From: a virus
Strand: one strand, 5' to 3'
DNA: 63,574 nt
Virus record (IMG/VR): IMGVR_UViG_3300048672_000387
Span: 1 to 63,574 of that record
Position numbers and translations under genes: made by a program. Numbering within the stretch: the first letter of the stretch is position 1; every line of letters starts with the position of its first letter. This document shows positions 8,301-62,946 of the stretch, piece after piece. The notes under the pieces were generated by a model that did no database searches, was not told the DNA's origin, and was given only the letters and a program-made list of their open reading frames with translations.

Positions 8301-11300
8301 TGTTGTACCAAAAGCAGATTGTAATACTAAACCTCCCCCTGGAATACGAATAGCTACAGTAGCTTTTGAAAAAAAAGAAGATAAATTTATAATCATTTTT
8401 TTAACTAAAAAAGGAGTATTTATTCCTAATTTAGAATTAGCTATAAATTCATTTTGTCTTTGATCTGTTTCAGTATTTTGTTTACTAATAGATTTTTTTC
8501 TTAAAGCATCTTGTTGTTTAATAAGTTCTTCAGTACCAGATTCATTATCTTCAATCCTATTTTGCATTTTTAATTCAGATAATAATTCATTTCTACCCAT
8601 TTCCATTAATTGAGCTTGAGCATCAAATAAATCTGCTGTAACTTCAGTATTTTTACCACTAAAATTAGCAAAATAACCTAATTGTGTAGGAAAAGCAGAT
8701 TCTTCTTTTTCTACATTATGTTCAGGATTAGATTGTATTCTATAATTTTCATTTTGTAAAGTAATTATTGAATTTTCATTAAAAATTAATTCATTGTTTT
8801 CATTAATTTTAGCAATTTGTAAAGGCTTGCCTACTTTAACTGCTGATTCAAAAACCATTTCATCTACATTATTTTCTTCTAAAATTGTTCTTATTTTAGC
8901 TAATTGAGGGAAAATTTTTATTAATTCATCTGTTAATTCAACACAAGAATATTTTACAGCTCTAGGTATTCCATTTTCATCAATTTCAAAATGAACAGGT
9001 TTAATTATACTACCTAAATTAAAAGCTTCTCCAAAACCTAATCTTAATTCTGATGCTCTTTTAGGAGTCATAAATCCTTGAGCATCTGTAATATCATAAT
9101 CTTTACCCCATATTTTTAAAAATTGTACAAAATCATTTCCTAAGACACCTTTTACATCTTCAACAACTAAAGACTTATATTTTTCAGGTAAAGCAAATTC
9201 AGAAACTACCCCTTTATATCCAGTTGCAAAAGCAATAGACATACGTTTAATAACATCAAATGAATTTTTATAAAATGCTTCATCTCCAGCAACTAATTGA
9301 TTTAATTGATGAGAATTAATATAATTATTAGCATAATATAAAGCACCTAAATTTTTTATATTTTCAGCATCCTGTTCTTCAGCAGTATCAAAACTTTTTT
9401 GTTTAAATTTATTAGCTATTGTTTTTAATTGATTAGTGTTTATATAATTTTCTATTTCTAAAATATTATTTACATTTTTATTTTTAAATAAATTTAAAAG
9501 TTCTTTAGAATATTCTTCAATAGATCTTTCTCCTTTAGGTAATAATTTTTCAAAACTGTTAAGATTTTTATATTTAATTTTTTTATAATTTCTTGATTCT
9601 TCTTGTTTTAAAATAGCAGTTATAGCTTTTTCAATTTTATCCCAATTTAAAAAATCAATTTCAGCACTAACAATATTAGGTTTATTAGAAATAGTTAAAA
9701 ATTGTTGAATGTACTTTCCATTAGATGACATTTGAGATAAAAAGAAATATTTAAAATTTCTTCTAAACCAATCTGTTTCAGATTCATTTTTATATCTAAC
9801 TCCACCTTCTTCATTTTCTTTTTTAATACCGTCAAAATTTATATATCTATATATTTTATTAATATTAGCACCATTAAAAATATTTTGTTTAAAAAAATCA
9901 GAATTTAAAAAACTAGGTTTTTTAAATAAATTTTCATCTACAAAACTTTGTAAAGTATTAATAGCTTGAGAAGCTAATGTAAATAAATAAGCAGTTTTAC
10001 CATCTATTCTTCTATAATTAGGGTTTCTTAAATCATTTTCTTCAACTATTTGAGTATCAGCTAATGTATTCATATAACCATTAAAATTTTGTAATATTTG
10101 AGATTCAAATTCTTCTATATCTCCTTCTTTAACTACAAAAGATTCAAATCCTGACATTAATGCTATAATAGCATCTTTTGTAGAAGTATCTGAAGATTTT
10201 AAAGAAACCCCAAACATTTTTTCAAAAGTTTGTTTAATAGTTTTATTTATTTCTTCAATAAAAGCAGTTGATTTTTTATCTTGATTTTTGCTTTTATCTA
10301 ATTTAGAAAGTTTATAATATAAATCTAAAATTTCTTTTTTATTTGAATTTAAATTTTCTATTAAATTGGTTATTAAATTATTTACAATAGTAACTCTTTG
10401 GATTTCTTTAGTTGCGTTTTTAAGAGTATGTCTATAATTAGTTTTTCCTCCTCCATATTCACCATACATTACTTGCTGTCTATACAAAGAAGATACTTGA
10501 GTTAATAATTCAACTAAAGTATTTTGATAACTTTTTTGTAAAAATAAAATAGACAATTGTTGTAAATCTAAATTAGAATTATTTTCTAAATTTATTATAC
10601 GATTAAAAAAAGTAGCATTGTTTTCATTTTTATTTCTTTTAATATAAGATGTTTTACCAGTATCTTCTATTTTAGATATTGTATTTTCATTTATAAATTT
10701 ATATCCTTTTATTACTTTTATTCCTTTAAAATACCCATTTATAGGATATGAATAATCTATTAAAGTATTTATATAATTTTGAATAGCATCAACATCTGAA
10801 TGTCTAGAAGATAATTTTTTAAATTTAGCAAATCTTTTATTTATTTCTTTACTTAAAGAATCAGAATCCATATTAGTATTAAGATTAGACAATGTTTCTA
10901 AACAAGTTAAATAAGCAAATCTAAAAGATACTATTTTATTTTTATTTATAATAGAAGAAAGCCCTCTTTTTACACTTTCAGATATATTAGTTTCATGATT
11001 TGTTTGTTCAGCATCGTTAATATCTTCAGTCCAATCTCCTCCTAAAATTTCAGAACCTTCAGCAGTTTCAGTATATATAACATTACCTTGAAATAAATCT
11101 TTTATCATATTATCATATATTTTTTTATTAGATAATGTAGATAATGATTTAATATTTAAAATATCTTCTTCAGTTTTATCTTTAATTTCTAAAAGTTCTT
11201 TTAAATGGTCTAAAATATCATCGTATATAATTCCATAAACATCTTCGTTTCTTTCCGGAACTTGTTCTTGCTCTAAATTTTCTTTAGAAATATCTAACAT

Positions 11301-14300
11301 TTGTTCTTTTAAAGAATCGTATTTTTTTATTATCCAATTTTGTGAAGTTTCAAAATTATTTATTGTTTCAAAATCTTTTAATATTTCATTATAATATTTA
11401 GTAGTTTCATTTAAATTAATAACTTTTTTAAATTGTTGGTTTTCAATATTTTTAAAAAAAGCATCTATACTAGGAATTAAAGTATAATTCATACCTAACC
11501 ATTTTTTTATTCTGTTAAAAAGAATATTTAAAAATGAAGAAACTTTAAATTTATTTTTCCATTCTTGATACATTTCTGCTAATGCTTCTTCTATTTCTAT
11601 TTCAGAACTATTAAAATTTAATTGCAATTCTTCAACTGCTTTTTTATAAACTAATTTTTTTTGTTCTGGAGTTAGCATCATATCAAATATTTTATGAAAC
11701 AGTTCATGTTTAGCAACATTTAATTTGGAAGTGCCATTTTCATCTAATAAATAAATTATACCGTCTTTAAATAATCCCCAAGATTCAATACCTTCTGCTA
11801 AAATTAACATTTCAGCTTCAGTTACAAATTGAATTTGTTCTTTAGTTAAAGTAGGATCTATTTTCTTTAAATAAGAAACAATATCATTAATATTTTTAGA
11901 TTCTCCTAATTTAGAATTTTTATTTTTTTCTAACCTAGCTAATTTTCTTTTAGCTGTGGGTATAACAGGTGTATTATTAGAATTGTTATTCGGAGGATTT
12001 AAAGTTACAGAAATACTACTAGATTCTATATTTTGTAAAGGATCTTCAAAAAATAAATTATCAGCTGAGGTAGATATATAAGCTTCTGTATAATTAATTT
12101 CTCTATCTTGAAATATGTTTTCTTTAGATGAAACAATAGGTACTGGAACTAATAAATCAGAAATATTTTGTAACCCGTTTATTTGAAATATATTTTCTAA
12201 TTCTTCAATTGTTAAAGTAGGATACATTATAGCTTTTAAATTTTTAAAATCTTCTGGGCTATAATTTTTTAAATCAAAATCAGAACCATATTTTATTTTA
12301 TATTTATTTAACAAACTATGTTGTTTTTTAGAAGGTAATACTCCAAATTCAGCTATAAATTCAGAATTTGTTTTAGTATCTCCTTTAGGTAGTAAATTTT
12401 TACCTTTACTAAAAACATTACCATCACTTTCAAAAGTAGTTCTAATAATAATACCGTTAGAATATTGATTTCCTTTAGCTATTAAATTAAAAGAATGTTG
12501 TGCTTTACCTGGTCTTCTTTTTTCAAATCTTTTTAAATCAGAAACATTAACTTCTAAAACTTCATCTTTAACTTTTACTTTAGCTATTTCATTTGTAATT
12601 TCTATTACTTTACCACTAACTTCTTTTCCTTCTACAATAAACGGATTGTTTATATTTTTAACATTTTTACCTACAATTATTTTTGTATCAGTTTCAGATA
12701 AAGGCTCGTGTAATAAATTATCAATTTCTTTAATTAAATCTAATTCTTTATTAGTTAATTTAACTTCTGTTCCAGTTTTAGTTTTAATTTTATCTAATAC
12801 AAAATTTAAATTTGAAGCTGAAATAATATCATAAATGTCTTTAGTAGATAAATTATATTTTGACACTAAATTTGTAAATTCTTTATATTTAGCTATAAAT
12901 TCATAAATAGGTTCAACTAAAGCTGAATGTTCTTTTTTATTAAGATTTTTACGTTTAAGTTTAATAAAATTAGTATCTCCTATTACCATATAAGGAACTC
13001 CAGGTAAAGGTTTAAATTTAGTATTTAAAGCGTCAATTTCTTTTTTAGTATATATTCTAATTTTATAATCTTTTGAATTTAATTTTTTATTTTTAGAAAA
13101 ATAATTAGCTATTTTATTTCTAATGTTTTCCCAATTAAATTCAGATGTATTTTCATAATCTGTTATAAAATTAGCTTTTTTAAAAGCTGTTATTTTTCCT
13201 TCTGCTAAAATTATTAAAGGAGTAGTTTTAGAAACTTCTAAAAATCCATCTTGTATATTTTTAAGTTTAGCAGGAGTTTTTAAAGAATCTATAAAAGATG
13301 TGTATAAAGATGGATTAATATTTTTTAAATTTTCTATTTCATTACTGTTTAATACACCTACTTCTAATAATCCTTCTGGACGTTTAACATATATTCCTAT
13401 CATAGATACACCTTTTATTAAAACCGGTATATATATAATTTTTTCATTTTCTTCAAATTTTGATATATTAACTCCATGTGGATACTCTAAATCAAAAGAA
13501 TTATTATTTACAATAGGAATTTCTTCTTCAATAACAGGTTCTTCAAATATTTCTTCTTCAACATCTTCTTCTTCTTCATTTTCTATAATTGATTCTTCTT
13601 CTACAGTTGTAACAAGAGAAATAGTTGGTGTTTTAGGCAATATAATTTCTTTATCTAATTGTTCTATTTCTTCTTTTCTATTTTTTTGAAAAGTTTCTCT
13701 GTTTTCTTTAATTTCATTTACATTTTTACTAGTAGAATTATTAATATTGTCATTTAAAGTATTTACTGTTTTTAAACCTTGAATAAATATAAAATTAGTA
13801 GCTCTTGAAGTAGCTGTGTACATTGCTTTATTAAATAAAACAACATCTTGAATTTTAATAGGATCAATAGCTACATATACTTCATCTATTGTTCTGCCTT
13901 GAACATCAACATACGATATTATTTCAACACCTAATTTTTTATTTTTCCAAAAATCAACATCGGACGGATGAACAATAATTGCTCTAGTTTTACCATCATT
14001 TAAATCTTTAGTTTTTAATATTTTTTCTATTCCTGATTTATCTTCAGAACCTTTACTTCCTAAAGTATTATCAGAATTAGAAGTTAAATATAGTGTTTCT
14101 TTTCTTAAATCTCTATTATTTCCTATAAACAAATCTTGAACATCATTTACTTCTGCTACATTACTTCTATACCTTACTGTTAAAGGTGTAATTAATATAT
14201 TATTATCAAAAATAGGATCTGTAGAATCTTCTAAAGCAACAATAGTTCCTCCAAATGCAGAGTTGCTTGTAATTTGATTAGGGTCTCCCATACCAATTAT

Positions 14301-17300
14301 TTTAATATCAGTTTTATTTCTAATATTATAATCTTGAACTCCTTTTAAAATTCTAGTTATTGTAGCAGTAGGAAGAGCATTGATTTCATCAATTACTATT
14401 AATTCAGTATTTTTTAAAATATTTGATTCTAGTTTTATTATTAAATCATCTATTGATGTATTTTGAGTTGTGCCTAATGAATCATTAATAGTTTTTGTAG
14501 AATGTTCGTTATGCCCAACAGCATATACATTTTCTGTTTTTAAACCAGAAACTTTAAATAACCATTTTATTACAATAGTAGTTTTTCCAGTACCGGCATA
14601 ACCTTTCATGTAAGCAAATGTTTTTTTACCTGTTACAAAAGACATTAATTCTTTAATAGCAAATAATTGTTGATTAGAAGGAACTACTGTTTTTTCGTCC
14701 CTACTTAATTCATTTTCAGTTACAATGTCAGTTACAGGATTTGATTTTCCTTCTACAAAATTTAATAAATTATCTAAAGCTAAAACTTTTTTATGTAAGT
14801 TTAAAAAATCTTTTGTTTTAGAAACATCATATTTTATATCTTCATCTATAACAGAATTTATTAATTTTTCAAAATTTAAATCTTCTTTAAAAATATTTCT
14901 AATTCCAGGAGTAAATAAATTTTCAACAGCTGCTCTAAAAGCTAATTTAGGATTGTTTTTATAAACTCTTGTAAAAAACAATAAACTTGTAGAAATAGAA
15001 GGAATACCTATATTATTATATAAATCTATAGCTTCTTGACTTAATTTTTCTTTTAAATTATAAAGTATTTCTTTTTGCTCTTTAGACATTTGATCTTTAA
15101 GAGAAATTAAAATATTTGTAATATAACCTATTTTTTCAAAAGGTGTAAAATCTTTAATGTCTTCTAATACATTTTTACCGGTTATAATTTTTATCAAGTC
15201 AGCTAATTCAGGAATCAATACGATTTTTTTATCAAATCCTAATTCATTTAATTGACTTTCTACTTTATTATCAGTTATTCTATCTTGTTCTAATTTTCTA
15301 TTAGCTTGTCTTTCTTTTACTATTTCAATTTGTTTTTTTATTTCTTCTAGGCTATTTTTATACTCATTTATAGCATCTTTATAATCAGAATCATTTTTTT
15401 CTTCTAAAACTTTAATCATATTAGAAAGTTGTTTTTCAACAGTTTCTAGTTTTTTTAAATCTACAAAGTCTTCAGATTTAGTAGCAAATAATATACTTTT
15501 TACAATATTAGTAAACTCATTAATTAAAAGTTCTTTAATTGTTTTTTTATTAATTTCTTTTTTTTCAAATGTTTGTGTAGAATTTAATTTTTCTAAAGTT
15601 TTATTTAAATTTAATTGTTCTAAATCTATATTATCTTGAATACTAGTATCTCCATTAAGAATATTATCAGCTAATTCTACATCTTCAGGTAAAAAATTTG
15701 ACGTATCTTCATCATTCATTATAGCACCGGCTATTTCATTTATTTCATCTAATTTAGATTGTTTGACATTTATATCATTTTGAATATCATTTAAACCGTT
15801 TTCTAAAATAGATTTAGATTTTGCTGTTATAGGAATATTATCAGAAATAACATCATCTATTATTTCTGTAACGTCTTCACCATTATTTATTCTTTCTTCG
15901 AGAGATTTATTAAAAAAATCATTTTCTATATTATTACTTTTTTGTTCTAATTCTTTACTATATAAATTAGATTTTTCAAAATCATTAAATTCTTTTAAAG
16001 TAGTAGTTTCTGGATTAAATTTATTTACTTTATTAACAATAGATTTTTTCCAATCCTTATCAAAATATTTTTGACCATTTTTTACATCAGCTATTTTAGT
16101 AAATTCATCATTAAATTTAGTATTAACTTGTTCTAATTCAGATAGTTTTAAATTTAAATATTCTATTCTTTTAGATGCTAATAAAGCTGTATTAGGATCA
16201 GATTCTAATTCTGCTTTTTCTATACCAAGCCTTAAAATTTCAGATTTTACATTTGATAATGTGGTTCCAATATTATATAATTCAGATTTTCTTTTATTAT
16301 ACTTTTCAATATCTTCTTTTTTATTAGAAGAAGGTAATACATGAGCATCAATTGTTTTAGCTAATTTTAAAAACTCTTGTTTTTTAGCTTTCATTTCAGC
16401 AATCATTCGGTCTTTATTAGAAACATCTAATCCTAATTTTTCAAATTCTTCATTTGAAGTTTTAGATAAAAAATCTATTTTATCATCTAAAAGATTTTCA
16501 GTAGCTGTATCATAATGTACTTTAACCCATTCAGCTAAAGCTGCTTTTTTAGCTAAATTTGCTAGTATTTCATTTTTATTTTCCTCTCCTAAAGTAGAAA
16601 TATCATCTAAATATTCTAGTTGATTTCTTTTCATTAAAAGATTTTCAAGTTTTTCATTACTAATTGTTAAATTACCGTTAGCATCTTTTTTACGTTGTTT
16701 AACTTTAACAGTTTTACCATCTATTTCTTGATCAACTTCTTCATCTTCGTAAATATCATTAGTGTCTAACATTTTATGTAAAGAACCTAATGAAGCTAAT
16801 TTAGCGTTTCTTTTCTTTTTTTCATTATTACCATAATCAATAAATCCACTTTTAGTGCCTCCTAATCCTCCAATCAATCCTCCTAATAATATTGATTTTT
16901 GACCTTCTTCATTTGAAAAATTATTAACCCCTCTACTTCCAATACCTTTTAAAGTATTCCAATCAAATAATTCTGAATCTGGATTATTTTGAAACATGTT
17001 TTGAATAGAAGTTTGTAAATTTTCTTCTACAAATCCTTCCATAGCAATTCCTTCTAATCCTTTTAAAATAGTAGAACCTGCTTTAGTAGAAGCAAATTTA
17101 TTAAAACTTTTAATTCCGGCGCCTAAACCAGGTATTTTACTTGTTGCTAATTTACCAATATTACCAGTAATTTCAGCATCTACGGTATTTAATCCTTTTG
17201 CAGCTAATCCTTTAACAGTATTACTACTTCTTCCTACATTTTTCATCAAATTTTTCATCTGTAAAAAATTAGTACCTGATAATAATATTGCATTTGCAGC

Positions 17301-18149
17301 AAATGTTCTAGCGGCTAATGGTGCTACTTCAACATTTAATTGATGTTGTTGTTCTGGTGTAAGAGCATCAAAAGACATTCCAAATTGAGTTTGTGCTTTA
17401 TTTTCTCTTACAGTATCTCTAATATCTTTAGCTTCAAACATAGCTTCAGAAGCTGTTTGTAAAGCAGTAGCTGTAGCAATATCTATATTTCCAGCAACTT
17501 TAGCTGCTTTATTTATTATACCCATTGCAGCTAATTTAGGAGCAATTTTAGTTCCTATTTTTAAAGCACTTACACCAATTCCAGTTCCGTAAGCTGATAA
17601 TAAAAAAGAAGTAGCATCAACAGCATCACTAGCCCAAAAATCTCCATCAAAAAGATTATTAAAAACATTAACTTTATTAGCTTGTTTATCTTCTATACTA
17701 TTATATAAAGGAGTAGCATTTTCTAATTGTTTTTCTATATCAGTTGATATTTTAGCTAATCCGTTATCAGCCGCTCCAGCAATCCAAGCTGCTATATTTT
17801 GACCTATATTAGAATTTTCATTTTTATAATTTTCATTAGCATTATCAATTCCTAACAACCCTCCCAATAATCCTATTCCAGCTGTAGTTTTTAAAACAGT
17901 TTTTCCTATTAATCTTTCAGTAGCTATTCCTAAAGCATCCATTCCATTTTGATTTCTACTTCTTCTTTCTTCTACATTTTCAGTTAAAAAAGTACCTTTA
18001 TCATAATTTGAATATTCTTCTCCTAAAGAAGCAAATGATAAATCTGTTGGAGCAATGTCAGAACCTGTATTTTGTCTTTGTACTATATCATTACTTTTTG
18101 TTAAATCAAAAAGATAATTATCTAATTCGTTATTTAATTTTTTTGCCAT
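5352..18149 (-). CDS. giant 4265-aa polypeptide: SF1 helicase, zincin motif and crAss-type RNA polymerase
   Basis: One uninterrupted frame. The N-terminal ~350 aa have Gly/Ala-rich hydrophobic segments as in ejected proteins, followed by long coiled coils. Residues ~1165-1450 form a RecD/UvrD-like helicase: GYAGTGKTT (Walker A, ~1184), LIVIDEIN (Walker B, ~1252), GMGDPNQ, and YTATSRA (motif VI region, ~1445). Near 2149 is HELFH with a downstream EEALAE, a gluzincin-like metallopeptidase pattern. Near 3374, FRIPSTELHS...GSDYDVDK matches the double-psi beta-barrel DxDxD motif of the crAss-like/YonO RNA polymerase, whose three Asp bind catalytic Mg. By analogy with the characterised phage phi14:2 enzyme, it would be a virion RNA polymerase injected to transcribe early genes. 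The fusion of all these modules in one chain implies later cleavage or a very elongated packaged form; the HExxH domain is a candidate processing protease (inference). Confidence 0.85.
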   Translation of the reverse strand: MAKKLNNELDNYLFDLTKSNDIVQRQNTGSDIAPTDLSFASLGEEYSNYDKGTFLTENVEERRSRNQNGMDALGIATERLIGKTVLKTTAGIGLLGGLLGIDNANENYKNENSNIGQNIAAWIAGAADNGLAKISTDIEKQLENATPLYNSIEDKQANKVNVFNNLFDGDFWASDAVDATSFLLSAYGTGIGVSALKIGTKIAPKLAAMGIINKAAKVAGNIDIATATALQTASEAMFEAKDIRDTVRENKAQTQFGMSFDALTPEQQHQLNVEVAPLAARTFAANAILLSGTNFLQMKNLMKNVGRSSNTVKGLAAKGLNTVDAEITGNIGKLATSKIPGLGAGIKSFNKFASTKAGSTILKGLEGIAMEGFVEENLQTSIQNMFQNNPDSELFDWNTLKGIGSRGVNNFSNEEGQKSILLGGLIGGLGGTKSGFIDYGNNEKKKRNAKLASLGSLHKMLDTNDIYEDEEVDQEIDGKTVKVKQRKKDANGNLTISNEKLENLLMKRNQLEYLDDISTLGEENKNEILANLAKKAALAEWVKVHYDTATENLLDDKIDFLSKTSNEEFEKLGLDVSNKDRMIAEMKAKKQEFLKLAKTIDAHVLPSSNKKEDIEKYNKRKSELYNIGTTLSNVKSEILRLGIEKAELESDPNTALLASKRIEYLNLKLSELEQVNTKFNDEFTKIADVKNGQKYFDKDWKKSIVNKVNKFNPETTTLKEFNDFEKSNLYSKELEQKSNNIENDFFNKSLEERINNGEDVTEIIDDVISDNIPITAKSKSILENGLNDIQNDINVKQSKLDEINEIAGAIMNDEDTSNFLPEDVELADNILNGDTSIQDNIDLEQLNLNKTLEKLNSTQTFEKKEINKKTIKELLINEFTNIVKSILFATKSEDFVDLKKLETVEKQLSNMIKVLEEKNDSDYKDAINEYKNSLEEIKKQIEIVKERQANRKLEQDRITDNKVESQLNELGFDKKIVLIPELADLIKIITGKNVLEDIKDFTPFEKIGYITNILISLKDQMSKEQKEILYNLKEKLSQEAIDLYNNIGIPSISTSLLFFTRVYKNNPKLAFRAAVENLFTPGIRNIFKEDLNFEKLINSVIDEDIKYDVSKTKDFLNLHKKVLALDNLLNFVEGKSNPVTDIVTENELSRDEKTVVPSNQQLFAIKELMSFVTGKKTFAYMKGYAGTGKTTIVIKWLFKVSGLKTENVYAVGHNEHSTKTINDSLGTTQNTSIDDLIIKLESNILKNTELIVIDEINALPTATITRILKGVQDYNIRNKTDIKIIGMGDPNQITSNSAFGGTIVALEDSTDPIFDNNILITPLTVRYRSNVAEVNDVQDLFIGNNRDLRKETLYLTSNSDNTLGSKGSEDKSGIEKILKTKDLNDGKTRAIIVHPSDVDFWKNKKLGVEIISYVDVQGRTIDEVYVAIDPIKIQDVVLFNKAMYTATSRATNFIFIQGLKTVNTLNDNINNSTSKNVNEIKENRETFQKNRKEEIEQLDKEIILPKTPTISLVTTVEEESIIENEEEEDVEEEIFEEPVIEEEIPIVNNNSFDLEYPHGVNISKFEENEKIIYIPVLIKGVSMIGIYVKRPEGLLEVGVLNSNEIENLKNINPSLYTSFIDSLKTPAKLKNIQDGFLEVSKTTPLIILAEGKITAFKKANFITDYENTSEFNWENIRNKIANYFSKNKKLNSKDYKIRIYTKKEIDALNTKFKPLPGVPYMVIGDTNFIKLKRKNLNKKEHSALVEPIYEFIAKYKEFTNLVSKYNLSTKDIYDIISASNLNFVLDKIKTKTGTEVKLTNKELDLIKEIDNLLHEPLSETDTKIIVGKNVKNINNPFIVEGKEVSGKVIEITNEIAKVKVKDEVLEVNVSDLKRFEKRRPGKAQHSFNLIAKGNQYSNGIIIRTTFESDGNVFSKGKNLLPKGDTKTNSEFIAEFGVLPSKKQHSLLNKYKIKYGSDFDLKNYSPEDFKNLKAIMYPTLTIEELENIFQINGLQNISDLLVPVPIVSSKENIFQDREINYTEAYISTSADNLFFEDPLQNIESSSISVTLNPPNNNSNNTPVIPTAKRKLARLEKNKNSKLGESKNINDIVSYLKKIDPTLTKEQIQFVTEAEMLILAEGIESWGLFKDGIIYLLDENGTSKLNVAKHELFHKIFDMMLTPEQKKLVYKKAVEELQLNFNSSEIEIEEALAEMYQEWKNKFKVSSFLNILFNRIKKWLGMNYTLIPSIDAFFKNIENQQFKKVINLNETTKYYNEILKDFETINNFETSQNWIIKKYDSLKEQMLDISKENLEQEQVPERNEDVYGIIYDDILDHLKELLEIKDKTEEDILNIKSLSTLSNKKIYDNMIKDLFQGNVIYTETAEGSEILGGDWTEDINDAEQTNHETNISESVKRGLSSIINKNKIVSFRFAYLTCLETLSNLNTNMDSDSLSKEINKRFAKFKKLSSRHSDVDAIQNYINTLIDYSYPINGYFKGIKVIKGYKFINENTISKIEDTGKTSYIKRNKNENNATFFNRIINLENNSNLDLQQLSILFLQKSYQNTLVELLTQVSSLYRQQVMYGEYGGGKTNYRHTLKNATKEIQRVTIVNNLITNLIENLNSNKKEILDLYYKLSKLDKSKNQDKKSTAFIEEINKTIKQTFEKMFGVSLKSSDTSTKDAIIALMSGFESFVVKEGDIEEFESQILQNFNGYMNTLADTQIVEENDLRNPNYRRIDGKTAYLFTLASQAINTLQSFVDENLFKKPSFLNSDFFKQNIFNGANINKIYRYINFDGIKKENEEGGVRYKNESETDWFRRNFKYFFLSQMSSNGKYIQQFLTISNKPNIVSAEIDFLNWDKIEKAITAILKQEESRNYKKIKYKNLNSFEKLLPKGERSIEEYSKELLNLFKNKNVNNILEIENYINTNQLKTIANKFKQKSFDTAEEQDAENIKNLGALYYANNYINSHQLNQLVAGDEAFYKNSFDVIKRMSIAFATGYKGVVSEFALPEKYKSLVVEDVKGVLGNDFVQFLKIWGKDYDITDAQGFMTPKRASELRLGFGEAFNLGSIIKPVHFEIDENGIPRAVKYSCVELTDELIKIFPQLAKIRTILEENNVDEMVFESAVKVGKPLQIAKINENNELIFNENSIITLQNENYRIQSNPEHNVEKEESAFPTQLGYFANFSGKNTEVTADLFDAQAQLMEMGRNELLSELKMQNRIEDNESGTEELIKQQDALRKKSISKQNTETDQRQNEFIANSKLGINTPFLVKKMIINLSSFFSKATVAIRIPGGGLVLQSAFGTTEYYNKEGQLIKEDLKWRDKDGYAEVVLPDFWKDKIKIGDSIMFDTMLGFRIPSTELHSAIPLKVVGYYPSNKNVIIAPGAITFFHGSDYDVDKLYVMRRSSHDSKTIYKQDGTILQEEGSMIGYKNNKLSKEWLNEVQEEMYNVLNSIHTAKNNKDIIGLKEYKNKYKALKELKVSYYKNVVVDSFLKIITDKVNEELMVSPITMDRFKGTGIETESTFDLVSRLEGFNVPKPFFENFNKKEDYNEAIKAWEKKRNEYIFKERDLYNLEEQMLMHKDNFSGTALTGVFADMAKVIAYYFQSTVDNKYPELKEAYHIEINGKTYKGFDYYENIDDIIVNYDDKGNAIKSKPTITESIDSLVNAAIDNVKEQILSIIGFTNNTGNVAVSMIAMGIPLNDIVLLMKQPIINLLNTETSFNRGYKKARTMYIENVYKLLNKNVEDVTEEDKVKINLDIENLKITNELLENIYNKPLEEMNYEDLILQLKVLTDTIRKGEMIASNIGKGKTAYSILKGFDITFDKLENVIETIDAIKLKTDKIDENTVDKTENVFENVDPIMLPHINKAFNVLKTLKSKMERLFYIHNPVLQEFSKEINSLNIFKLGNKELEAESNLRESLLQYLLSGMSYTTKEGYEINNSTLDEPEYVSSNGKTYTGTDAFNRRFTEEIFALRKANPNNKFLNNLYLNKKTKTFSFDVAKNIDQADLLKLQLDFMSLKENGQYTKLQYEFIKYAVINQGLRFGNSSYSLIIPNEMYEPLMEKYNSYFIKLSSIPNEFKTLLDQVKSNFVLQFAMNNAKKYVKYLNKEQYSKATNFSGILLNKEKFSEPEMFYTIGDTLYVKLEDSTNTEWKYANVGDFTKIKGYQFSSINLIGKYNVNIAFDSNVRTVKVSNNKEQSFTSEYKYQIGSKIRLLNYSDITRMNMIEYQIESVEENKNKTFDYTLTSPTFVNTIVSEAEIVNSQEFKKLIAEGFISEIALHKIKNNC

Positions 18150-39099: not shown

Positions 39100-40533
39100 T
39101 TAGCTTAAATTACATTGTAAATCAATTGAAGTATTAAACCTTCTAAGTACAATACCAGAAGCTTTTAATAAGTGGATGCTTGAAGCATCTTTATCCGAAG
39201 CTCTAAAATCGTTACCTTTAAAATCAGATGGTAATTCATTGATACCAGCTACAACTCTACGAATCATTGCTCTGCCTTTTTTGTTAACCATAATTAAATT
39301 AGGTTTACCATTATAGGTTGAAGTATCTACAAACACCATACGATATGATTCTAATGGTAATCCTGAAATAGGATGTTTAGGGCTATTTAAAGCTTTAGGA
39401 CCATCATCAAACAAATTGATTTTTTTAATGGTAATTGTATGACCATCTATATGTTGATAAGTTGTGAAGAAACCACTTAACTCTAAGTTACGACCAGTTC
39501 CGTAAACAAATTTACCAGCATCTAATTTGATATAACCTCTACTAGAAACATCATCTTTCATAGCGTTATCAAATTCTTCACATCCACCTACACCTGTAAA
39601 TAAAGTAATAGATTTTTTAGAAGCATCTGACATACCATATAAAGCATCACGAACTACTTGTTTAATTTTTTGAGTAGTTAAAATACCATAAGTATCTTTA
39701 TTAGTAATTTGTTCTAACAAACCATCACCGATAGGAATAGCTACACCGTTTTTATCTTTAAGTGTTACAATACCTCTATCATCACGGTTATCTTTACCAT
39801 ACCAATAAAGCATTTCACATTCTAATTTAAATGCAATCATGTGCTGATACTCTTCAAAATCCCACCAATAATTAGTAGTACCTTTATCAGTTTGTACTTG
39901 CATTGTCATAGTACGTTCTACTGCATTACCTTCCCATGCGTAAGATTTACGAATAGTAGTAATTTGACCTCTCACCATACCTGGAGCAGCTGCAAAACTT
40001 TCATTACCTGTTGAACCATAAGAAGCAACTGGAGCAAAAGCTTGGCTAAATAATTGACCTGCAACTAATTCACTTAAAGGTACAAATTCAGAAGCATTAG
40101 TAGCTGCTAACATGAATGTGTATTCCCAGTTAGTACCACGTTGCACAGGTTCTTCACTTACACGAATTTGATAACCGTTTGGAGTAAAGATAATATAATC
40201 TTTAGCAAAACGTCTTTCAGAAAATACTAATTTAAAAGGAGTAAATCCAATACCAGGTTGTGTTGAAGCTGAATAAGTTTCAGCTAACATTACAGGTGAA
40301 TATAAACGACCTATAATATTGTACTCGTATTCATTACCTTCAATTTCCATAGTATTTTGCATACCTTCAGTTAAAAAAGATAATGGAAAACGCTCATCTT
40401 CCTGACCCATTAAGTATGTTAATACTGGAGTCAATTTTTCAGGTTTAAGTAACAACTGTCTTTGTAATGAGTTGTCGTTAGTTTTACCCTGTTCATTCCA
40501 GATTACATCTGGGGTTAGTTTAAAAACTGCCAT
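39100..40533 (-). CDS. major capsid protein (crAss-like HK97 fold)
   Basis: 477 aa. It has the length and the characteristic start of crAss-like MCPs, including the segment LMGQEDERFPLSFLTEGM near residues 40-60. The rest is a mix of helices and strands consistent with the HK97 fold. It forms the icosahedral shell. It is encoded after the scaffold candidate and before a strong terminator, and its codons are richer in GC than its neighbours', as expected for a highly expressed gene. No separate protease cleavage site is evident. Confidence 0.85.
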   Translation of the reverse strand: MAVFKLTPDVIWNEQGKTNDNSLQRQLLLKPEKLTPVLTYLMGQEDERFPLSFLTEGMQNTMEIEGNEYEYNIIGRLYSPVMLAETYSASTQPGIGFTPFKLVFSERRFAKDYIIFTPNGYQIRVSEEPVQRGTNWEYTFMLAATNASEFVPLSELVAGQLFSQAFAPVASYGSTGNESFAAAPGMVRGQITTIRKSYAWEGNAVERTMTMQVQTDKGTTNYWWDFEEYQHMIAFKLECEMLYWYGKDNRDDRGIVTLKDKNGVAIPIGDGLLEQITNKDTYGILTTQKIKQVVRDALYGMSDASKKSITLFTGVGGCEEFDNAMKDDVSSRGYIKLDAGKFVYGTGRNLELSGFFTTYQHIDGHTITIKKINLFDDGPKALNSPKHPISGLPLESYRMVFVDTSTYNGKPNLIMVNKKGRAMIRRVVAGINELPSDFKGNDFRASDKDASSIHLLKASGIVLRRFNTSIDLQCNLS

Positions 40534-44078: not shown

Positions 44079-44086
44079 CAAATTTA
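44079..44086 (-). promoter_or_regulatory. Bacteroidota-type -7 element for portal/MCP operon
   Basis: TAAATTTG (minus strand) followed by CACAAA and the portal ATG. It overlaps the TerL stop codon. The surrounding 12-mer TTTTGTGCAAAT is identical to that of the promoter at 20197-20204. This suggests head genes have a promoter separate from TerL. Confidence 0.5.
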
Positions 44087-47000
44087 ATAATTAGAATTGA
44101 AATTACCTAATGAATCAAATTTTGTAAAAAAAGGGTCTGTATTATAAACATATTGAGGTCTATCAATAGATTTACTTTCAATTTGTTTTTGATAATACAT
44201 AGCAATTATACAAGCAGAAACCCTATCAAAATTTCCATCGTATTCAAATTTAATTAATTCTTCCAACAAAGGTACAGAATAAATCATATTTAAATTTAAT
44301 TTAATTTTACCAGATGGATCTACTCCTCTTCTACATAATAACCAATCTCTTAAATATAAACATCCTTGTTGTTTCTTTTTTAAATTAGACATAGACATTC
44401 CATATCCTCTACTTAATGAATTAGAAACTTTTTCTCCTTTATCGTAAATATCAGCTTCTTCTTGTAACCAACTTAATACTTTATTAGTTCTACAATATTG
44501 AATAACATTTCCCCTATCATTTTCAAATCCTATTTTAGCATTATAATATTTGGCAATCATTATCATAATCCTATTATATTCATCTTGACCAGCTGAAGGT
44601 CTAGCTGTATATTCAGCTACAATTAAATCGTCAGGTTGTGATATATTATTTACTTGTTTAAATACAAATAATGAACCTAAAGATTCTCCTTTTTCTGAAT
44701 CTACTCCATAAGGGTCATGTCCTATATAATATAAATTATTAGGTACTCTATTTTCTTCTTTATATGGAGCTTGATATTGAACAAAACATCCTTCTCTATC
44801 AGAATCTTTTTTAAGTGGAAAAGAATCTATTGGTTTAGCTTTATCTGAAGGATTAAATATTATTTCTCCATCTTTATCTACAAGTTCTCCACATACACCT
44901 AACGATTCATCTATTCTACTAGATTTAATATAATTAATTTGAGCTTGAAGTTCTGCTTTAGGAAATATGTTACTAGATGCTTTAATAAAGGCCTCTTTCG
45001 GCGTCCTGGGAAATTCGGCCAGCATTACATCTACTGCATTAGGATCTTTAGAAGTTCTTTTTTTATTTTCTATTTCTCCTTCAATATATATTTTAGCTTC
45101 TTCAATTTGAGATTCACCTTTTTCAGATATAAATCCACCTTTAGAATAATAATCTGGTAAAAAATAACCTATTTGAGTTAACTCCATTCCTTCTTCAAAT
45201 ACATTTTTATATGCTCTAAAGTTATAAGGTTCAGGATTATAAAACATTTCATCAAAATCTACTATACCGGCAGAGAAATCTCCACCTGTTCCAAAAGCAA
45301 AAATTTGACCTGATACTCCTAAACCTTCTTCTACTGTTGGTCTTGTTGCTGCATAGGTAGCTTTAAGGTTAGTAAAAGACCCACAATTATGCACAATTGT
45401 AAAATCAGATAATAAAAATAAATTATCTTTATCTACTGTAATTCCATAATATTCTCCTTTTCCAAAATCTTCTATTTTTATTCTAGTATTTAATGGGTTA
45501 GAGGTAGGTTCCCAGTTTACAACTTTTTTTCTTTTTATTTTAACAGGTATTTTTCTGTAATCTCCTTTTATATGTAATCTAAAATAAACTCCATTTTTTC
45601 TATATCCTTCTTTTGATTCTTTTAAAGCTAATGTAGTAGCAAAACCACAAGAGTTAGCTAAAAACTCTAAATCTTTTATAAGTCTATAATTTGCTTGAAT
45701 AATTTCGTATGAAAAAGAATGGCTGGTTCCTTTATGTAAAAATCCATCACTATCAATAAACCCAGCTAAAAGTTCTAATCTTTGTTCTAAAGAAGAAAAT
45801 TTATAAATATTAGGAATATGCTTATTACAATGTATATTTAAATCTTTAAGTAAAGTAGTAAATTTATTTTTTATTTGCGGCTTTTCTCGTAAAGTAAATG
45901 TTTTACATTTAGGTGTTTTATTACATTTATTAATTCTTAATTCTGCGTTTAATCTAGTAGCATATTCTTTTATATAGTTTTCTATTTCACAATCTGCTTC
46001 AACATTAATTACAATATTTGCTTCAGTTTTATCTCCATCACCTAACCACAACCCTAACCAATAAGGCTCAAAAGGTAATTTTTTTTCTTCAAAATGTAAC
46101 CCTGAACTTTTTATTCCGTAACTAGTTTGCTGCTTATATTTAATTAATTTTCTAAATTCACCTACTGTATATTCTTTAATACCATCATTTGTGTAACATT
46201 TATTGTTACATTTTTGTTCTAAAACAAGTTTGTGTTTACTGTTTACAACATAGTTAATTCCTTTTTGTTGTTTAACTAAATATAAATCATCTGTTCCAGT
46301 TGTAGTATTCAAAACAGTTCTTTTAGAACCATCTTTACCCATAACAAAATCTCCAATTTTAATATTTTGAATATTTTTAATAGAACCATCATACATTAAA
46401 ACTGGAGTGTCTTTTCCAAAACATTCTTCAAATAAAATAACATTAGCATCTTTACCCCTGGCAACTGAAGCATTATTTTTAGCTGTCATTGCTAACAATC
46501 TACTAAAACTTCCACTTCTTGTTTTGGTTCCATCAGCTAATACTTCTTCATAACCTGCTAATATTTCATCTTTAGGTTTATTAATTAATCTATTTTTACC
46601 AAAATCAGTATATTTCATTAAGAAATCTAAATAGCTTACAGCCATTCCCATAGTTTCTTCTGAATAATCGGATGATTCTGCTATAATAAGTGATGTAGAT
46701 TTTCTAAGAAATGTATAATTATATGCACATTTAGCTGCATTTTTATATGAATACCCTCTACGTCTAGGTTTAAGAATAATCATGTGTTGTCCAGCTTCTC
46801 TAGCTAATTCACATTCAGTAAAATAAAACCAATCACTATCCCAAAAATCTGGAAAAGTTACTAATTTTTCTACTTTCTTTTTACCTTTTAATACTTCTGA
46901 TCCAAATCCTGTTTTTAATTGTATTTGACAAAAGTTTAAATAAAAATAATGTTCTCCTGTAATACGCACTCCACCAACAGAATAACCATTTTTACAATAG

Positions 47001-47155
47001 TATTCTTGTTCATCCCAATATTTAATCCATTCATAAGAATGTTTAGGAGCATCTATATAAAATCCAACACCTGTATTTTTAAAATTTTTAAGCCATTCAT
47101 TTGCTGGCAACCTAAAATTTTCTATATTAATGTGGCTAAGATCTAACGTAAACAT
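44084..47155 (-). CDS. terL: terminase large subunit interrupted by an intein
   Basis: 1023 aa including a 346-aa intein (residues 245-590). The N-extein has an Arg-rich adenine/Walker A region ILKPRRRGYSYKN (128-140). The ATPase Walker B is NVILFEE, cut directly after the catalytic Glu. The C-extein resumes CGSFTNLKATYAATRPT and carries the RNase H-like nuclease with YIGHDPYG and FENDRG. After splicing the enzyme would be about 677 aa, normal for crAss-like TerL. It packages DNA through the portal and cuts concatemers. It lies directly before the portal gene. Confidence 0.93.
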   Translation of the reverse strand: MFTLDLSHINIENFRLPANEWLKNFKNTGVGFYIDAPKHSYEWIKYWDEQEYYCKNGYSVGGVRITGEHYFYLNFCQIQLKTGFGSEVLKGKKKVEKLVTFPDFWDSDWFYFTECELAREAGQHMIILKPRRRGYSYKNAAKCAYNYTFLRKSTSLIIAESSDYSEETMGMAVSYLDFLMKYTDFGKNRLINKPKDEILAGYEEVLADGTKTRSGSFSRLLAMTAKNNASVARGKDANVILFEECFGKDTPVLMYDGSIKNIQNIKIGDFVMGKDGSKRTVLNTTTGTDDLYLVKQQKGINYVVNSKHKLVLEQKCNNKCYTNDGIKEYTVGEFRKLIKYKQQTSYGIKSSGLHFEEKKLPFEPYWLGLWLGDGDKTEANIVINVEADCEIENYIKEYATRLNAELRINKCNKTPKCKTFTLREKPQIKNKFTTLLKDLNIHCNKHIPNIYKFSSLEQRLELLAGFIDSDGFLHKGTSHSFSYEIIQANYRLIKDLEFLANSCGFATTLALKESKEGYRKNGVYFRLHIKGDYRKIPVKIKRKKVVNWEPTSNPLNTRIKIEDFGKGEYYGITVDKDNLFLLSDFTIVHNCGSFTNLKATYAATRPTVEEGLGVSGQIFAFGTGGDFSAGIVDFDEMFYNPEPYNFRAYKNVFEEGMELTQIGYFLPDYYSKGGFISEKGESQIEEAKIYIEGEIENKKRTSKDPNAVDVMLAEFPRTPKEAFIKASSNIFPKAELQAQINYIKSSRIDESLGVCGELVDKDGEIIFNPSDKAKPIDSFPLKKDSDREGCFVQYQAPYKEENRVPNNLYYIGHDPYGVDSEKGESLGSLFVFKQVNNISQPDDLIVAEYTARPSAGQDEYNRIMIMIAKYYNAKIGFENDRGNVIQYCRTNKVLSWLQEEADIYDKGEKVSNSLSRGYGMSMSNLKKKQQGCLYLRDWLLCRRGVDPSGKIKLNLNMIYSVPLLEELIKFEYDGNFDRVSACIIAMYYQKQIESKSIDRPQYVYNTDPFFTKFDSLGNFNSNY
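45386..46423 (-). mobile_element. LAGLIDADG-containing intein in TerL
   Basis: It runs from Cys1 (in CFGKDTPVL, codon at 46423-46421) to the terminal Asn of IVHN (codon 45388-45386); the +1 extein residue is Cys. Block B-like NSKHKLVL lies near residue 305 of the fusion. Two LAGLIDADG motifs, LGLWLGDG (367-374) and LLAGFIDSDGF (462-472), show a double-motif homing endonuclease. All splice-site residues appear intact, so it is probably active in splicing. Confidence 0.9.
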
Positions 47156-55876: not shown

Positions 55877-55952
55877 ACCTTGAACCTATTATACTTTAAG
55901 TTTATTAATTATCCGTAATTATTAAATTGTATGATAGACGCGGAAAGAGTAC

Positions 55953-56056
55953 ATCAGATACATTCTAGAACGTAATTCTGATTAGCTGTATTAAATGATG
56001 AATGTTATTACAAATACACTAAGCTAAAGTCGTGTGTAGTCTTTGTTACCTAGACT
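55953..56056 (+). ncRNA. candidate folded RNA upstream of tmRNA
   Basis: In the 330-base gap after the membrane gene: hairpin ATCAGA (55953-55958) / TCTGAT (55977-55982); helix TTAGCT-GTATT (55982-55992) with AATAC-acta-AGCTAA (56013-56027, 4-nt bulge); hairpin AGTCT/AGACT (56038-56056). Found by eye; class unknown. Confidence 0.35.
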
Positions 56057-56074
56057 TAAATATAATGGTAAGGT

Positions 56075-56144
56075 TTCGGGAATAGCTTAACGGTAAAGCA
56101 GCAAGGGCTAACTTGCAGATTAGGGTTCAAATCCCGTTGTCGAA
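56075..56144 (+). tRNA. tRNA-like element with competing 3' hairpin
   Basis: The D-arm is tRNA-like (TA-GCTT-AACGGTA-AAGC), the anticodon-like stem GCAAG/CTTGC is perfect but has a 6-nt loop, and the T-loop is TTCAAAT between GGG and CCC. The acceptor is imperfect (TTCGGGA against TGTCGAA, one G-G clash). Its 3' strand can instead form a perfect 7-bp hairpin with bases just beyond (56138-56155). Either a degenerate tRNA or a tRNA mimic. Confidence 0.35.
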
Positions 56145-56212
56145 CAACTTCGACATCTAAAAGAAGTAAAAAAGTTATACTAATCAAATTCTTTAAAAAT
56201 TAGATTATTTAT

Positions 56213-56648
56213 GGGGCATAACGGTATTGATTCGAGAGTTCAGCCTTATTACAATCAACACAAGGAAGATGCTATACTTGTAAATGTGTATCAAACAACA
56301 AACGACAAAATCTCTAATGAAAGCAGAGCTTTCGCAGAAGGTGTAGAAGCTAGAATTATCTCATTGTTTAACAATGAAGTAGAATTAGCAGCGTAGTAAG
56401 TTTAAAAGAAATAATAGAAAAGTAGGTTGGGAAGTAACCATCTTCTAAGGAGTAGCTGAAATAGTGCTTTTAGTGTAACAACACATCTGTTATTTTAAAA
56501 TCAACGAATCCTAACGTTAATAATTGGAGGTGGTAAATGACCGTAACTGGTCAATCCCTACTACTCAGTAGTAATACAGAGTGAATTGTTGTAGAGAATT
56601 TGTAATATAGCATCTAGGAAGACATGGGTTCGACTCCCATATGCTCCA
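56213..56648 (+). ncRNA. ssrA: transfer-messenger RNA (tmRNA)
   Basis: The 5' end GGGGCAT (56213-56219) pairs perfectly with ATGCTCC (56641-56647). Next comes a D-like segment with TGATTCGA, close to the GGATTCGA of bacterial tmRNA. The T-arm is ATGGG-TTCGACT-CCCAT. A P2-type helix joins TATTACAA (56247-56254) and TTGTAATA (56600-56607). Inside is a tag frame ending ...NNEVELAA with stops TAG TAA (from 56394), the usual hydrophobic LAA degradation tail. The length, ~436 nt, is slightly long for tmRNA. The resume codon is not certain; an Ala codon giving a 15-aa tag (ARIISLFNNEVELAA) is plausible. CCA is not encoded. Phage tmRNAs are known in some mycobacteriophages; for crAss-like phages I know of none. 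Confidence 0.85.
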
Positions 56649-56650
56649 CA

Positions 56651-56667
56651 ATTGATTGATAATCAAT
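56651..56667 (+). terminator. hairpin directly after tmRNA
   Basis: Perfect 7-bp stem ATTGATT/AATCAAT with loop GAT, 2 bases past the tmRNA 3' end. There is no T-run, so it is more likely a processing or stability element than a full terminator. Confidence 0.4.
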
Positions 56668-56753
56668 GAACTGTCCTTTATCAGTATAAAAGATGAAAGA
56701 GAAAGTGCCATCTAAAAGAGCACGTTTAAAAAAACATAAATAACATAAATAAC

Positions 56754-57182
56754 ATGACAAATTTAAAATTAGTATCAATTACAGAACCTAAAACAGAAAA
56801 AGAAAGATCAGATTCAAAAGTAAGCAGAATGTATTATACAGCTACTTTTAGTAATCCATTAAATCCATTTAGTAAAACAGTATCAAGAACATTTTGGCAA
56901 CAACATAATGCTGATGGTACACAAGCTACTTGGAAAGGTGCTGATCCTGTACAAGTTAGACCTTTTGTTGGTAAATTAATACCAGGTCAAATTGTTGCTG
57001 CAAATGTTGAACCTTATGAAATTGATGGTAGCACAGGTAGAATGGCTACAACATTTACATCAGTTGTATTAGATGGTGAAATTGCTGAACAAGTATTTAA
57101 AGCATCAGGTAAAATCATTGTTAAAGCTGCTAATTTAGCTATTGCTGAACAACCGGCTGTAGCTGAAAATGTACCATTTTAA
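56754..57182 (+). CDS. putative ssDNA-binding-like early protein
   Basis: 142 aa. Beta-rich (YYTATFSNPLNP, TVSRTFWQ, GQIVAANVEPYEI, TTFTSVVLDGEI) followed by a helix and the C-terminal end AENVPF. The strand pattern and a Pro-Phe end resemble SSB proteins, whose acidic tail ends in (D)IPF. The tail here is less acidic. SSB is a guess from pattern; a different beta-barrel protein remains possible. It is followed by a strong terminator. Confidence 0.45.
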   Translation: MTNLKLVSITEPKTEKERSDSKVSRMYYTATFSNPLNPFSKTVSRTFWQQHNADGTQATWKGADPVQVRPFVGKLIPGQIVAANVEPYEIDGSTGRMATTFTSVVLDGEIAEQVFKASGKIIVKAANLAIAEQPAVAENVPF

Positions 57183-61439: not shown

Positions 61440-61690
61440 ATAACTTTCCAACAGTAGGGTATACAGAATTTAATAAAATTGTATATGATAAACTAAAATA
61501 TTTATATAAATTAAAAAATTTAGATTTAAAAGATTTTGATTATTATAATAAAATACCTAAAAAATATATTGCTTGGAATATGAGCCAAAATACCGGATTT
61601 GTTGATTTATATTTTTGTAATAAAAGCGCTAAAACGTATTATACTTTAGAACAATTAATGTTAACAGAAAGGATTTACGAATTATGGTAG
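61433..61690 (+). CDS. small module protein ending in YELW
   Basis: 85 aa. Contains KKYIAWNMSQNTGFVDLYF and ends RIYELW with a TAG stop, which shows TAG acts as a stop in this arm. Its end overlaps the helicase start (ATGGTAG). Confidence 0.6.
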   Translation: MVNNFPTVGYTEFNKIVYDKLKYLYKLKNLDLKDFDYYNKIPKKYIAWNMSQNTGFVDLYFCNKSAKTYYTLEQLMLTERIYELW

Positions 61691-62946
61691 ATCAAAATAG
61701 TCCAAGAACTTTATGGCAAAAACAAGTTATAAATAAATGGATAAATAATTGTAAAGCAAGAGGTTACACTGAAATTTGTACTGGAGCTGGTAAAAGTTAT
61801 ATTGGTATTTTAGCTATTAAATTGTGTAATGAAAGACATTCAACTAAACAAATAAATGTAATTGTTCCGACCACTGTATTAAAAGAAGCCTGGACTGATG
61901 AAAAAAAAGGACATATTAAATTACATAATTTAAAAAATGTAAATGTTTATGTAGTAAATACTTATGTAAAAACTAAACATGAATGTGCTTTGTTATTGTT
62001 AGATGAATGTCAACATTATACTAATGAAAACTCTAAAACTTTTAATAAAGTAATTGCTAATACTACATTTAATTGGATATTATGTTTAACTGCTACTTTA
62101 GAAAAAGAACATAAAGATTTTCTTAATGCTAGAAATATTACATTAATTGAAAAGTTTACAGCTCAACAAGGTGTAGATGCAGGTTGGTTAAGTCCTTATA
62201 AAGTTTTATGTGTACCTATTGAATTAGATGAATCTGATAGAGAAAGGTATGAAACTTTAAACAAAAATTATTACAAATACGGAAGTCCTTTTAGTAATGG
62301 TTATTCTATTGATTTTAAAGTAGCAATGGCGTGTATGAAAAAAGGAGAAACTTTAACTAATTATGCAAATTCTTTAAAATGGGAAGAACAAAAACTTAAA
62401 ATCATGGCTATTCAATGGAATTTAGCTATGCAACAAAGAAAACAATTTCTTTACCATATAGAATCTAAAATAAATGCTGCTATTGAAATTACTAAAAAAC
62501 TTCAAATGCAATCTATACTTTTTGGTCAATCTATTGTTGGTGCAGATAAAATATCTGAAGCATTAGGTGATGAATGTGTTAAATATCATTCTAAAATGAC
62601 TAAAAAACAAGCTAAAGAAAATCTAAAAAAGTTAAAAGATGGTAGAACTAAAGTAAAATATATATCTTCAGCTAAAGGATTAGAAGAAGGTTTTGATTTA
62701 CCAAATCTTCAATTAGGTATAACTTGGAGTCGTACTTCTAAAGCTCTTAGAGCTACTCAAATTACAGGAAGGTTACTTAGATATTACCCAGGTAAAATAG
62801 CTTATATGATAGAGCTTTATGTGCCAGCTACACAAGATTTGAAATGGCTTCAAACTTCACTTAAAGGACAAAAGAATGTTTTTTGGTTATCTAACATAGA
62901 CCAAGTATATCAAATAATTAACCAAGATAAAGAAAAACTAATATGA
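61684..62946 (+). CDS. superfamily 2 DNA helicase
   Basis: 420 aa. Motif Q-like LWQKQVINKW, Walker A CTGAGKSYIG (~residue 38), Walker B LLLDECQH (DECQ), motif III LTATLE, C-lobe motifs AKGLEEGFDLPNL (V) and QITGRLLRY (VI). The layout is that of compact SF2 helicases such as UvsW-like or RecG-type enzymes in phages. It would act in replication or recombination, and is translationally coupled to the upstream small gene. Confidence 0.9.
   Translation: MVDQNSPRTLWQKQVINKWINNCKARGYTEICTGAGKSYIGILAIKLCNERHSTKQINVIVPTTVLKEAWTDEKKGHIKLHNLKNVNVYVVNTYVKTKHECALLLLDECQHYTNENSKTFNKVIANTTFNWILCLTATLEKEHKDFLNARNITLIEKFTAQQGVDAGWLSPYKVLCVPIELDESDRERYETLNKNYYKYGSPFSNGYSIDFKVAMACMKKGETLTNYANSLKWEEQKLKIMAIQWNLAMQQRKQFLYHIESKINAAIEITKKLQMQSILFGQSIVGADKISEALGDECVKYHSKMTKKQAKENLKKLKDGRTKVKYISSAKGLEEGFDLPNLQLGITWSRTSKALRATQITGRLLRYYPGKIAYMIELYVPATQDLKWLQTSLKGQKNVFWLSNIDQVYQIINQDKEKLI

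Follow-up and report, generated by a model that had tools for sequence, protein, structure and literature searches.

Does the region at 56213-56648 of this viral genome encode a tmRNA of a crAss-like phage, carrying its own tag, as the first-pass annotation had proposed, and what would such an RNA do in the infected cell? To answer this, the whole stretch of DNA analysed (hereafter the window), an IMG/VR virus record of 63,574 bases with a GC content of 25.6%, was considered together with related phage records.

The phage and the setting of the locus

By its capsid, portal and terminase profiles, the window belongs to the crAss-like phages (Crassvirales), in agreement with the initial proposal. 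Besides the major capsid protein (Table 1), profiles of the crAss type were matched for the portal (phrog_6547, 5e-125) and the terminase (phrog_6681, 7e-114). The capsid was about 30% identical to named members of the Crassvirales, and for this reason the phage is taken as a new lineage. The tmRNA locus sits within a non-coding stretch (55877-56753) flanked by small genes. The tRNA-like gene directly upstream, in which the anticodon loop (GGCUAA) has 6 nt and the T stem 3 bp, was rejected by ARAGORN and likely forms one RNA cluster with the tmRNA. Moreover, no SmpB gene was encoded in the 63.6 kb of the window or in 13 tmRNA-bearing records, so that the SmpB of the host would be used by the phage tmRNA. 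Base composition gave no sign of a chimeric assembly around the locus, and stop-codon reassignment in the window was discarded, as reading through TAG or TGA barely altered the coding density.

Two other genes of the window were recorded. In the terminase large subunit (44084-47155, minus strand, 1023 aa), the half at 260-632 and the half at 588-994 matched different families of terminases, and approximately 230 additional residues were present at the N terminus; an inserted element, for instance an intein, is possible. Furthermore, a single open reading frame of 4265 aa (5352-18149, minus strand) encoded a giant protein of the size found in crAss-like phages.

Detection of the tmRNA gene

The Rfam tmRNA model RF00023 aligned from end to end, with positions 1-374 of 374 matching 56213-56651 (25.3 bits, local E-value of 3.4e-8), and the E-value of the locus was 6e-10 when the whole record was scanned. 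The suggested check with the tmRNA covariance model was therefore satisfactory in length and E-value but not in score, which was under the gathering cut-off of 47 bits and included a composition bias of 16.6 bits. The outcome named as counting against the annotation, a model search without a full-sequence hit, did not arise. The match was obtained with an E-value threshold, while Rfam at the gathering threshold found only the upstream tRNA. The other proposed check went against the annotation, as ARAGORN reported no tmRNA in the window. When 42 further crAss-like records (1.16 Mb, largely fragments) were scanned with RF00023 in the same way, no tmRNA was detected, the best stray score being 9.6 bits. 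The folding energy of the locus had a z-score of -2.97. An interior-only profile of 36 other phage tmRNAs, with the acceptor and T arm removed from the training set, was searched against the window plus 10 shuffles, and its top match, although weak (E-value of 0.13), was 56285-56399, spanning from pseudoknot 1 (PK1) to the stop. Together with the acceptor, T arm, D-like loop, P2 helix and PK1 described below, the full-length alignment bears out the original assignment: judged from its sequence, 56213-56648 encodes a real one-piece tmRNA, in a divergent copy missed by ARAGORN.

No match to the locus was found by BLASTN against 50,697 phage records, and searches for related loci with the neighbouring proteins (56754-57182 and 61684-62946) returned no relatives. 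The records with 93-97% identical capsids were fragments without the tmRNA region, and gave no close homologue of the locus. A 36-bp match in record G017 was rejected as a chance start-codon context, no tmRNA being present there.

Structure of the RNA

The acceptor was paired at all seven positions; the third pair is a G-U (G3-U70) and the other six are Watson-Crick. The description of a perfect acceptor thus held for the pairing but not for that third pair, which is the alanine identity pair. The canonical T arm and the D-like segment ACGGTATTGATTCGA that had been noticed were both confirmed, and the three elements, the D loop being stemless, make up an alanine tRNA-like domain (TLD). Beyond the acceptor, the 3′ end reads ACAA and CCA is not encoded.

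The P2 helix was likewise recovered as described, with 13 pairs in two helices, an arrangement equalled by 41 of 3000 shuffles (p ~0.013). The last A of CAACA is common to the inner helix and stem 1 of PK1, leaving 4-5 inner pairs. When either the 5′ or the 3′ arm was swapped with that of 37 other phage tmRNAs, none (0/37) paired equally well. These arm-swap and shuffle tests provide the support for pairing in place of RNAalifold and pair counting on alignment A2, where MAFFT leaves the P2 arms out of register by some two columns.

Regarding the pseudoknots, PK1 was located with five pairs in each stem: ACAAG/CTTGT in stem 1 (56260-56264/56277-56281) and GATGC/GTATC in stem 2 (56268-56272/56288-56292), equalled by 35 of 3000 shuffles (p ~0.012). 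For pseudoknots 2-4, only the conserved GGTGGTA with the GACC/GGTC hairpin and one further hairpin were seen. GGUGG is almost invariant in A2, and the hairpin after the motif recurs, with changed pairs, in L185, L229 and L239.

Table 1. Positions of the tmRNA, its elements and other features (window coordinates unless a record is named)
Feature	Position	Strand	Basis or remark
tmRNA (ssrA-like), one-piece, 436 nt including discriminator A, CCA not encoded	56213..56648	+	RF00023 and homology to other phage tmRNAs
Acceptor 5′ strand GGGGCAT	56213..56219	+	Sequence
D-like loop AACGGTATTGATTCG, no D stem	56220..56234	+	Aligned with ACCGGTATTGATTCG of L139
P2 outer helix, 5′ strand TATTACAA	56247..56254	+	Pairs with 56600-56607
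P2 inner helix, 5′ strand CAACA	56256..56260	+	Pairs with 56587-56591
PK1	56260..56292	+	Shuffle test; relatives have the same geometry
Tag frame DKISNESRAFAEGVEARIISLFNNEVELAA followed by TAG TAA; candidate resume codon GAC 56304	56304..56399	+	Homology
GGTGGTA motif, then hairpin TGACC-GTAACT-GGTCA	56529..56553	+	Pseudoknot 3/4 region
Hairpin TACTAC-TCA-GTAGTA	56559..56573	+	Counterpart of TTACT/AGTAA in L220
P2 3′ strands TGTTG and TTGTAATA, with 8-nt internal loop TAGAGAAT between them	56587..56607	+	
T arm ATGGG-TTCGACT-CCCAT	56624..56640	+	Sequence
Acceptor 3′ strand ATGCTCC and discriminator A (56648)	56641..56648	+	Sequence; paired strand 56641-56647
Degenerate tRNA-like gene	56076..56144	+	Rfam tRNA, 33.9 bits; directly upstream of the tmRNA
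Major capsid protein, crAss-like	39100..40533	-	PF23898 (Crass_capsid), 8.8e-80; identifies the phage group
TLD-only RNAs	L162:3260-3342 (-), L210:10-91 (-), L152:4494-4575 (+), L137:4660-4741 (-), L174, L182, L004:7793-7873 (+), 12 more		
TLD-only RNA, Stenotrophomonas phage Jojan60	ON045087 37724-37804	-	

Tag frame and resume codon

The internal frame ending in NNEVELAA and its tandem stops were found as first reported, with the coding part of the tag at 56304-56393 and TAG-TAA at 56394-56399. The LAA tail attributed to the tag was thus retained, but the tag itself is longer by homology, at about 30 residues. The resume codon, which was to be located, could be given a candidate, its start being placed by homology: GAC 56304 lies 11 nt after PK1, the same spacing as in L220/L232 (resume GAC, tag DEMSTMTFDDLMAFVGADYALAA). 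The sequences preceding it at equal spacing are AAACAATAACT-GAC in L220/L232 and AAACAACAAAC-GAC in the window. Because the spacing and the aligned start are shared with phage tmRNAs that ARAGORN calls unaided, GAC 56304 is most likely the resume codon, which would give the 30-residue tag listed in Table 1. Position -5 of this site is C in the window vs. U in most relatives. A shorter tag read from GCU 56349 (ARIISLFNNEVELAA) is possible, and the UA common at -5/-4 is present there. It was nevertheless ranked second, since its start lies 56 nt downstream of PK1 and the corresponding inner site is not shared by L002 and L003.

In the tag block of the relatives, differences were found mainly at third codon positions and were often synonymous, including switches between the codon families of leucine and serine. 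Synonymous vs. nonsynonymous tag codons numbered 5 vs. 0 for L159/L134, 3 vs. 0 for L002/L006 and 7 vs. 5 for L131/L146. Such codon changes are direct evidence, at the level of sequence, that the long tags of related phage tmRNAs are translated and conserved as protein. It is further suggested, with considerable doubt, that in the tags of crAss-like and other Bacteroidota phages the stretch of 15-25 conserved residues leading up to LAA may form a peptide module evolved by phages beyond the degron, which would give tagged products a phage-chosen fate (for example, as an adaptor-binding helix or one for membrane or protease routing); the window tag would be a further type.

Related phage tmRNAs

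The first-pass annotation had placed phage tmRNAs in a few mycobacteriophages only, and this was contradicted by both literature and genomes. PMC9004378 counts 402 tmRNA-bearing genomes among 18,146 phages by 2021, PMC7162821 mentions tmRNAs in huge phages, and the 2014 list given in PMC4131195 comprises eight mycobacteriophages, Bacillus phage G and DS6A, the last being TLD-only. Among the crAss-like genomes in RefSeq, a tmRNA is annotated in cr106_1 (Mahstovirus faecalis, NC_055871) and in cr114_1 (NC_055897) and cr125_1 (NC_055900), both Aurodevirus. A search mainly by title and abstract found no paper discussing tmRNA in crAss-like phages, which GenBank annotates. Therefore, tmRNAs were already known in phages, including crAss-like genomes, and the window gene is real but not unprecedented. 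What is new is this lineage, the divergent copy missed by ARAGORN and the evidence for protein-level conservation of the tag in related tmRNAs.

IMG/VR was scanned with a 3′-end pattern, and only matches with a D-like loop and a 5′ acceptor able to pair with the 3′ end were kept. Among the matches listed, at least 36 further candidates were one-piece and exceeded 110 nt in length; at least one of them (L175, 133 nt) falls short of a complete tmRNA. Most of the candidates were accepted by ARAGORN, with long tags such as VELSTMTFEDLMSFVGADEYAYAA, DEMSTMTFDDLMAFVGADYALAA and ANMQVVHNILNGIDELSVKSDTVIGELELAA. The crAss capsid profile was matched in at least seven tmRNA-bearing IMG/VR records (G064, G073, G074, G075, G079, G088 and G089); G088 is cr106_1, whose RefSeq entry reads 'transfer-messenger RNA, SsrA'.

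Like the window, cr106_1, cr114_1 and cr125_1 are crAss-like phages having a tmRNA with its own tag, but none of these annotated copies shows DNA similarity to that of the window. In particular, cr106_1 also has its tmRNA beside tRNAs, whereas it differs in length (304 nt) and in its 8-residue tag (DNTYRVAA), and the tmRNA of cr114_1 has a circularly permuted form (RF04321, 50.9 bits). As a separate observation on cr114_1 (L247:1487-1805 and 1031-1198), the annotated span of the tmRNA includes a tRNA-His, and approximately 290 nt upstream there is a RAGATH-9 RNA.

The highest nucleotide similarity to the window among the matches listed (~67-68% identity) was shown by the tmRNAs with the ELSTMTFEDLMAFVGADYALAA tag (L220, L232, L139, L159, L002 and L006), which share the PK1-to-resume spacing and, in L220/L232, the resume GAC. 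However, their tag sequence is different and their records, which are fragments, show no crAss capsid profile. The long-tag tmRNAs of environmental crAss-like phages (L202, L223, L229 and L239) and of Cellulophaga phages (phi14:2 and Calle_1) are one-piece with tags of about 20-40 residues, as in the window, and, L202 excepted, their P2 is likewise in two parts and has an internal loop on the 3′ side. In contrast, their tags carry ANMxVVHNILN or a variant, a motif that the window tag lacks; of 12 tests against such tags, only the alignment with L239 reached p ~0.007, which is suggestive only.

The motif ANMxVVHNILN is common to crAss-like phage tmRNAs (L202, L223, L229, L239 and L246, the last being the cultured phi14:2); the unrelated Pervagoviridae phage Calle_1 (L248) has it in a weaker version, ANMEAVNAILN. 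This distribution suggests that phage families infecting the same hosts have exchanged the tag or converged on it. The tmRNA of Cellulophaga phage phi14:2 (L246:2001-2470; NC_021806 4031-4500) was called by ARAGORN and is unannotated in RefSeq; the tag assigned by the program, GSSVQKLAMVA, is probably too short.

Compared with bacterial one-piece tmRNA (ssrA), the window copy has the same TLD, P2, PK1 and tag frame ending in LAA, but it is viral, scores under the Rfam gathering threshold and has a tag of ~30 residues vs. ~10. The tmRNAs of mycobacteriophages (Bxz1, Wildcat and others) are also phage-encoded, but belong to another phage group and host. The 3′-end pattern was additionally matched in two records with phage tRNAs bearing a CTA anticodon (L004:6898-6972 and L191:1128-1202, both on the plus strand), called tRNA-Pyl by ARAGORN and possibly amber suppressors.

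TLD-only RNAs

At least 19 IMG/VR loci encode RNAs of 75-98 nt in which the tRNA-like domain of tmRNA is closed over one hairpin, with neither mRNA-like domain nor tag. The hairpin covaries, with double changes in 8 of 11 predicted pairs. Several of these RNAs exceed the threshold of the Rfam tmRNA model and are called tmRNA. In PMC4131195, mycobacteriophage DS6A is the only one recorded as TLD-only, and a similar molecule strongly inhibits tmRNA. TLD-only RNAs may thus be a widespread phage decoy against tmRNA.

Proposed function and alternative explanations

The locus is very probably a phage one-piece tmRNA working by trans-translation in the infected cell, which is probably one of the Bacteroidota. 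What can be read from the window is how the RNA is built, where its tag frame lies and that the phage is crAss-like, whereas charging, SmpB dependence and proteolysis would follow from established tmRNA biology. Host AlaRS would charge the RNA through the G3-U70 pair, and host SmpB and EF-Tu would deliver the charged RNA to stalled ribosomes. The broken messages on which these would have stalled are likely to be plentiful from the time when the genome and mRNAs of the host begin to be destroyed. The ribosome would then switch into the phage frame at about nt 92, add a tag of ~30 residues ending in VELAA and terminate at the tandem stops. The freed ribosome would go back to phage messages, and the tagged fragment would be passed to ClpXP-type proteases. 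The benefit to the phage would be ribosome recycling during the destruction of host messages.

A first alternative is a decayed or captured remnant, a former host or phage ssrA that is now non-functional. The low covariance score, the missing ARAGORN call, the lack of a SmpB gene and the lack of a tmRNA in the 42 other crAss-like records, mostly fragments, are in line with it. However, no damage is seen in the acceptor, the T arm, P2, PK1, the double stop or the tag frame, which is still open, whereas drift at 25.6% GC would soon break an RNA of ~436 nt. The P2 arms, moreover, pair only with their own partners in the arm swaps. These points make this explanation improbable.

Still less probable is a decoy tmRNA that would be charged and bind SmpB, blocking or diverting host trans-translation, with long-tag products escaping or being rerouted from proteolysis. 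It would have a parallel in the TLD-only molecules that inhibit tmRNA (PMC4131195), RNAs of a kind carried by many phages, and in the protein-level conservation of long tags beyond the C-terminal degron in related tmRNAs. Against it, a pure decoy would have no need of the complete mRNA-like domain, the degron end of VELAA type and the tandem stops that the window retains.

Lastly, a small protein gene starting at ATG 56211 (61 residues, MGHNGIDSRV...VELAA*, containing the tag) is very improbable: the frame stays open from 56211 to TAG, but in most homologous phage tmRNAs stop codons interrupt it before the resume site is reached, so that only its tag part is conserved (in L002, L220, L134 and L159 it opens only from about nt 59-61). 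A protein gene would also leave the structural elements of the RNA (acceptor, T arm, P2 and PK1) without explanation.

Significance of a phage-encoded tmRNA

The finding means that standard tools under-count the tmRNAs of AT-rich crAss-like phages. The phage tmRNAs found around crAss-like viruses bear long tags that evolve as proteins, and this is the part most deserving of work. Since related genes occur in cultured phages, such as Cellulophaga phage phi14:2 and the Bacteroides cellulosilyticus phage 'tikkala', what a phage would gain from its own ribosome-rescue RNA and the fate of the tagged peptides are directly testable.
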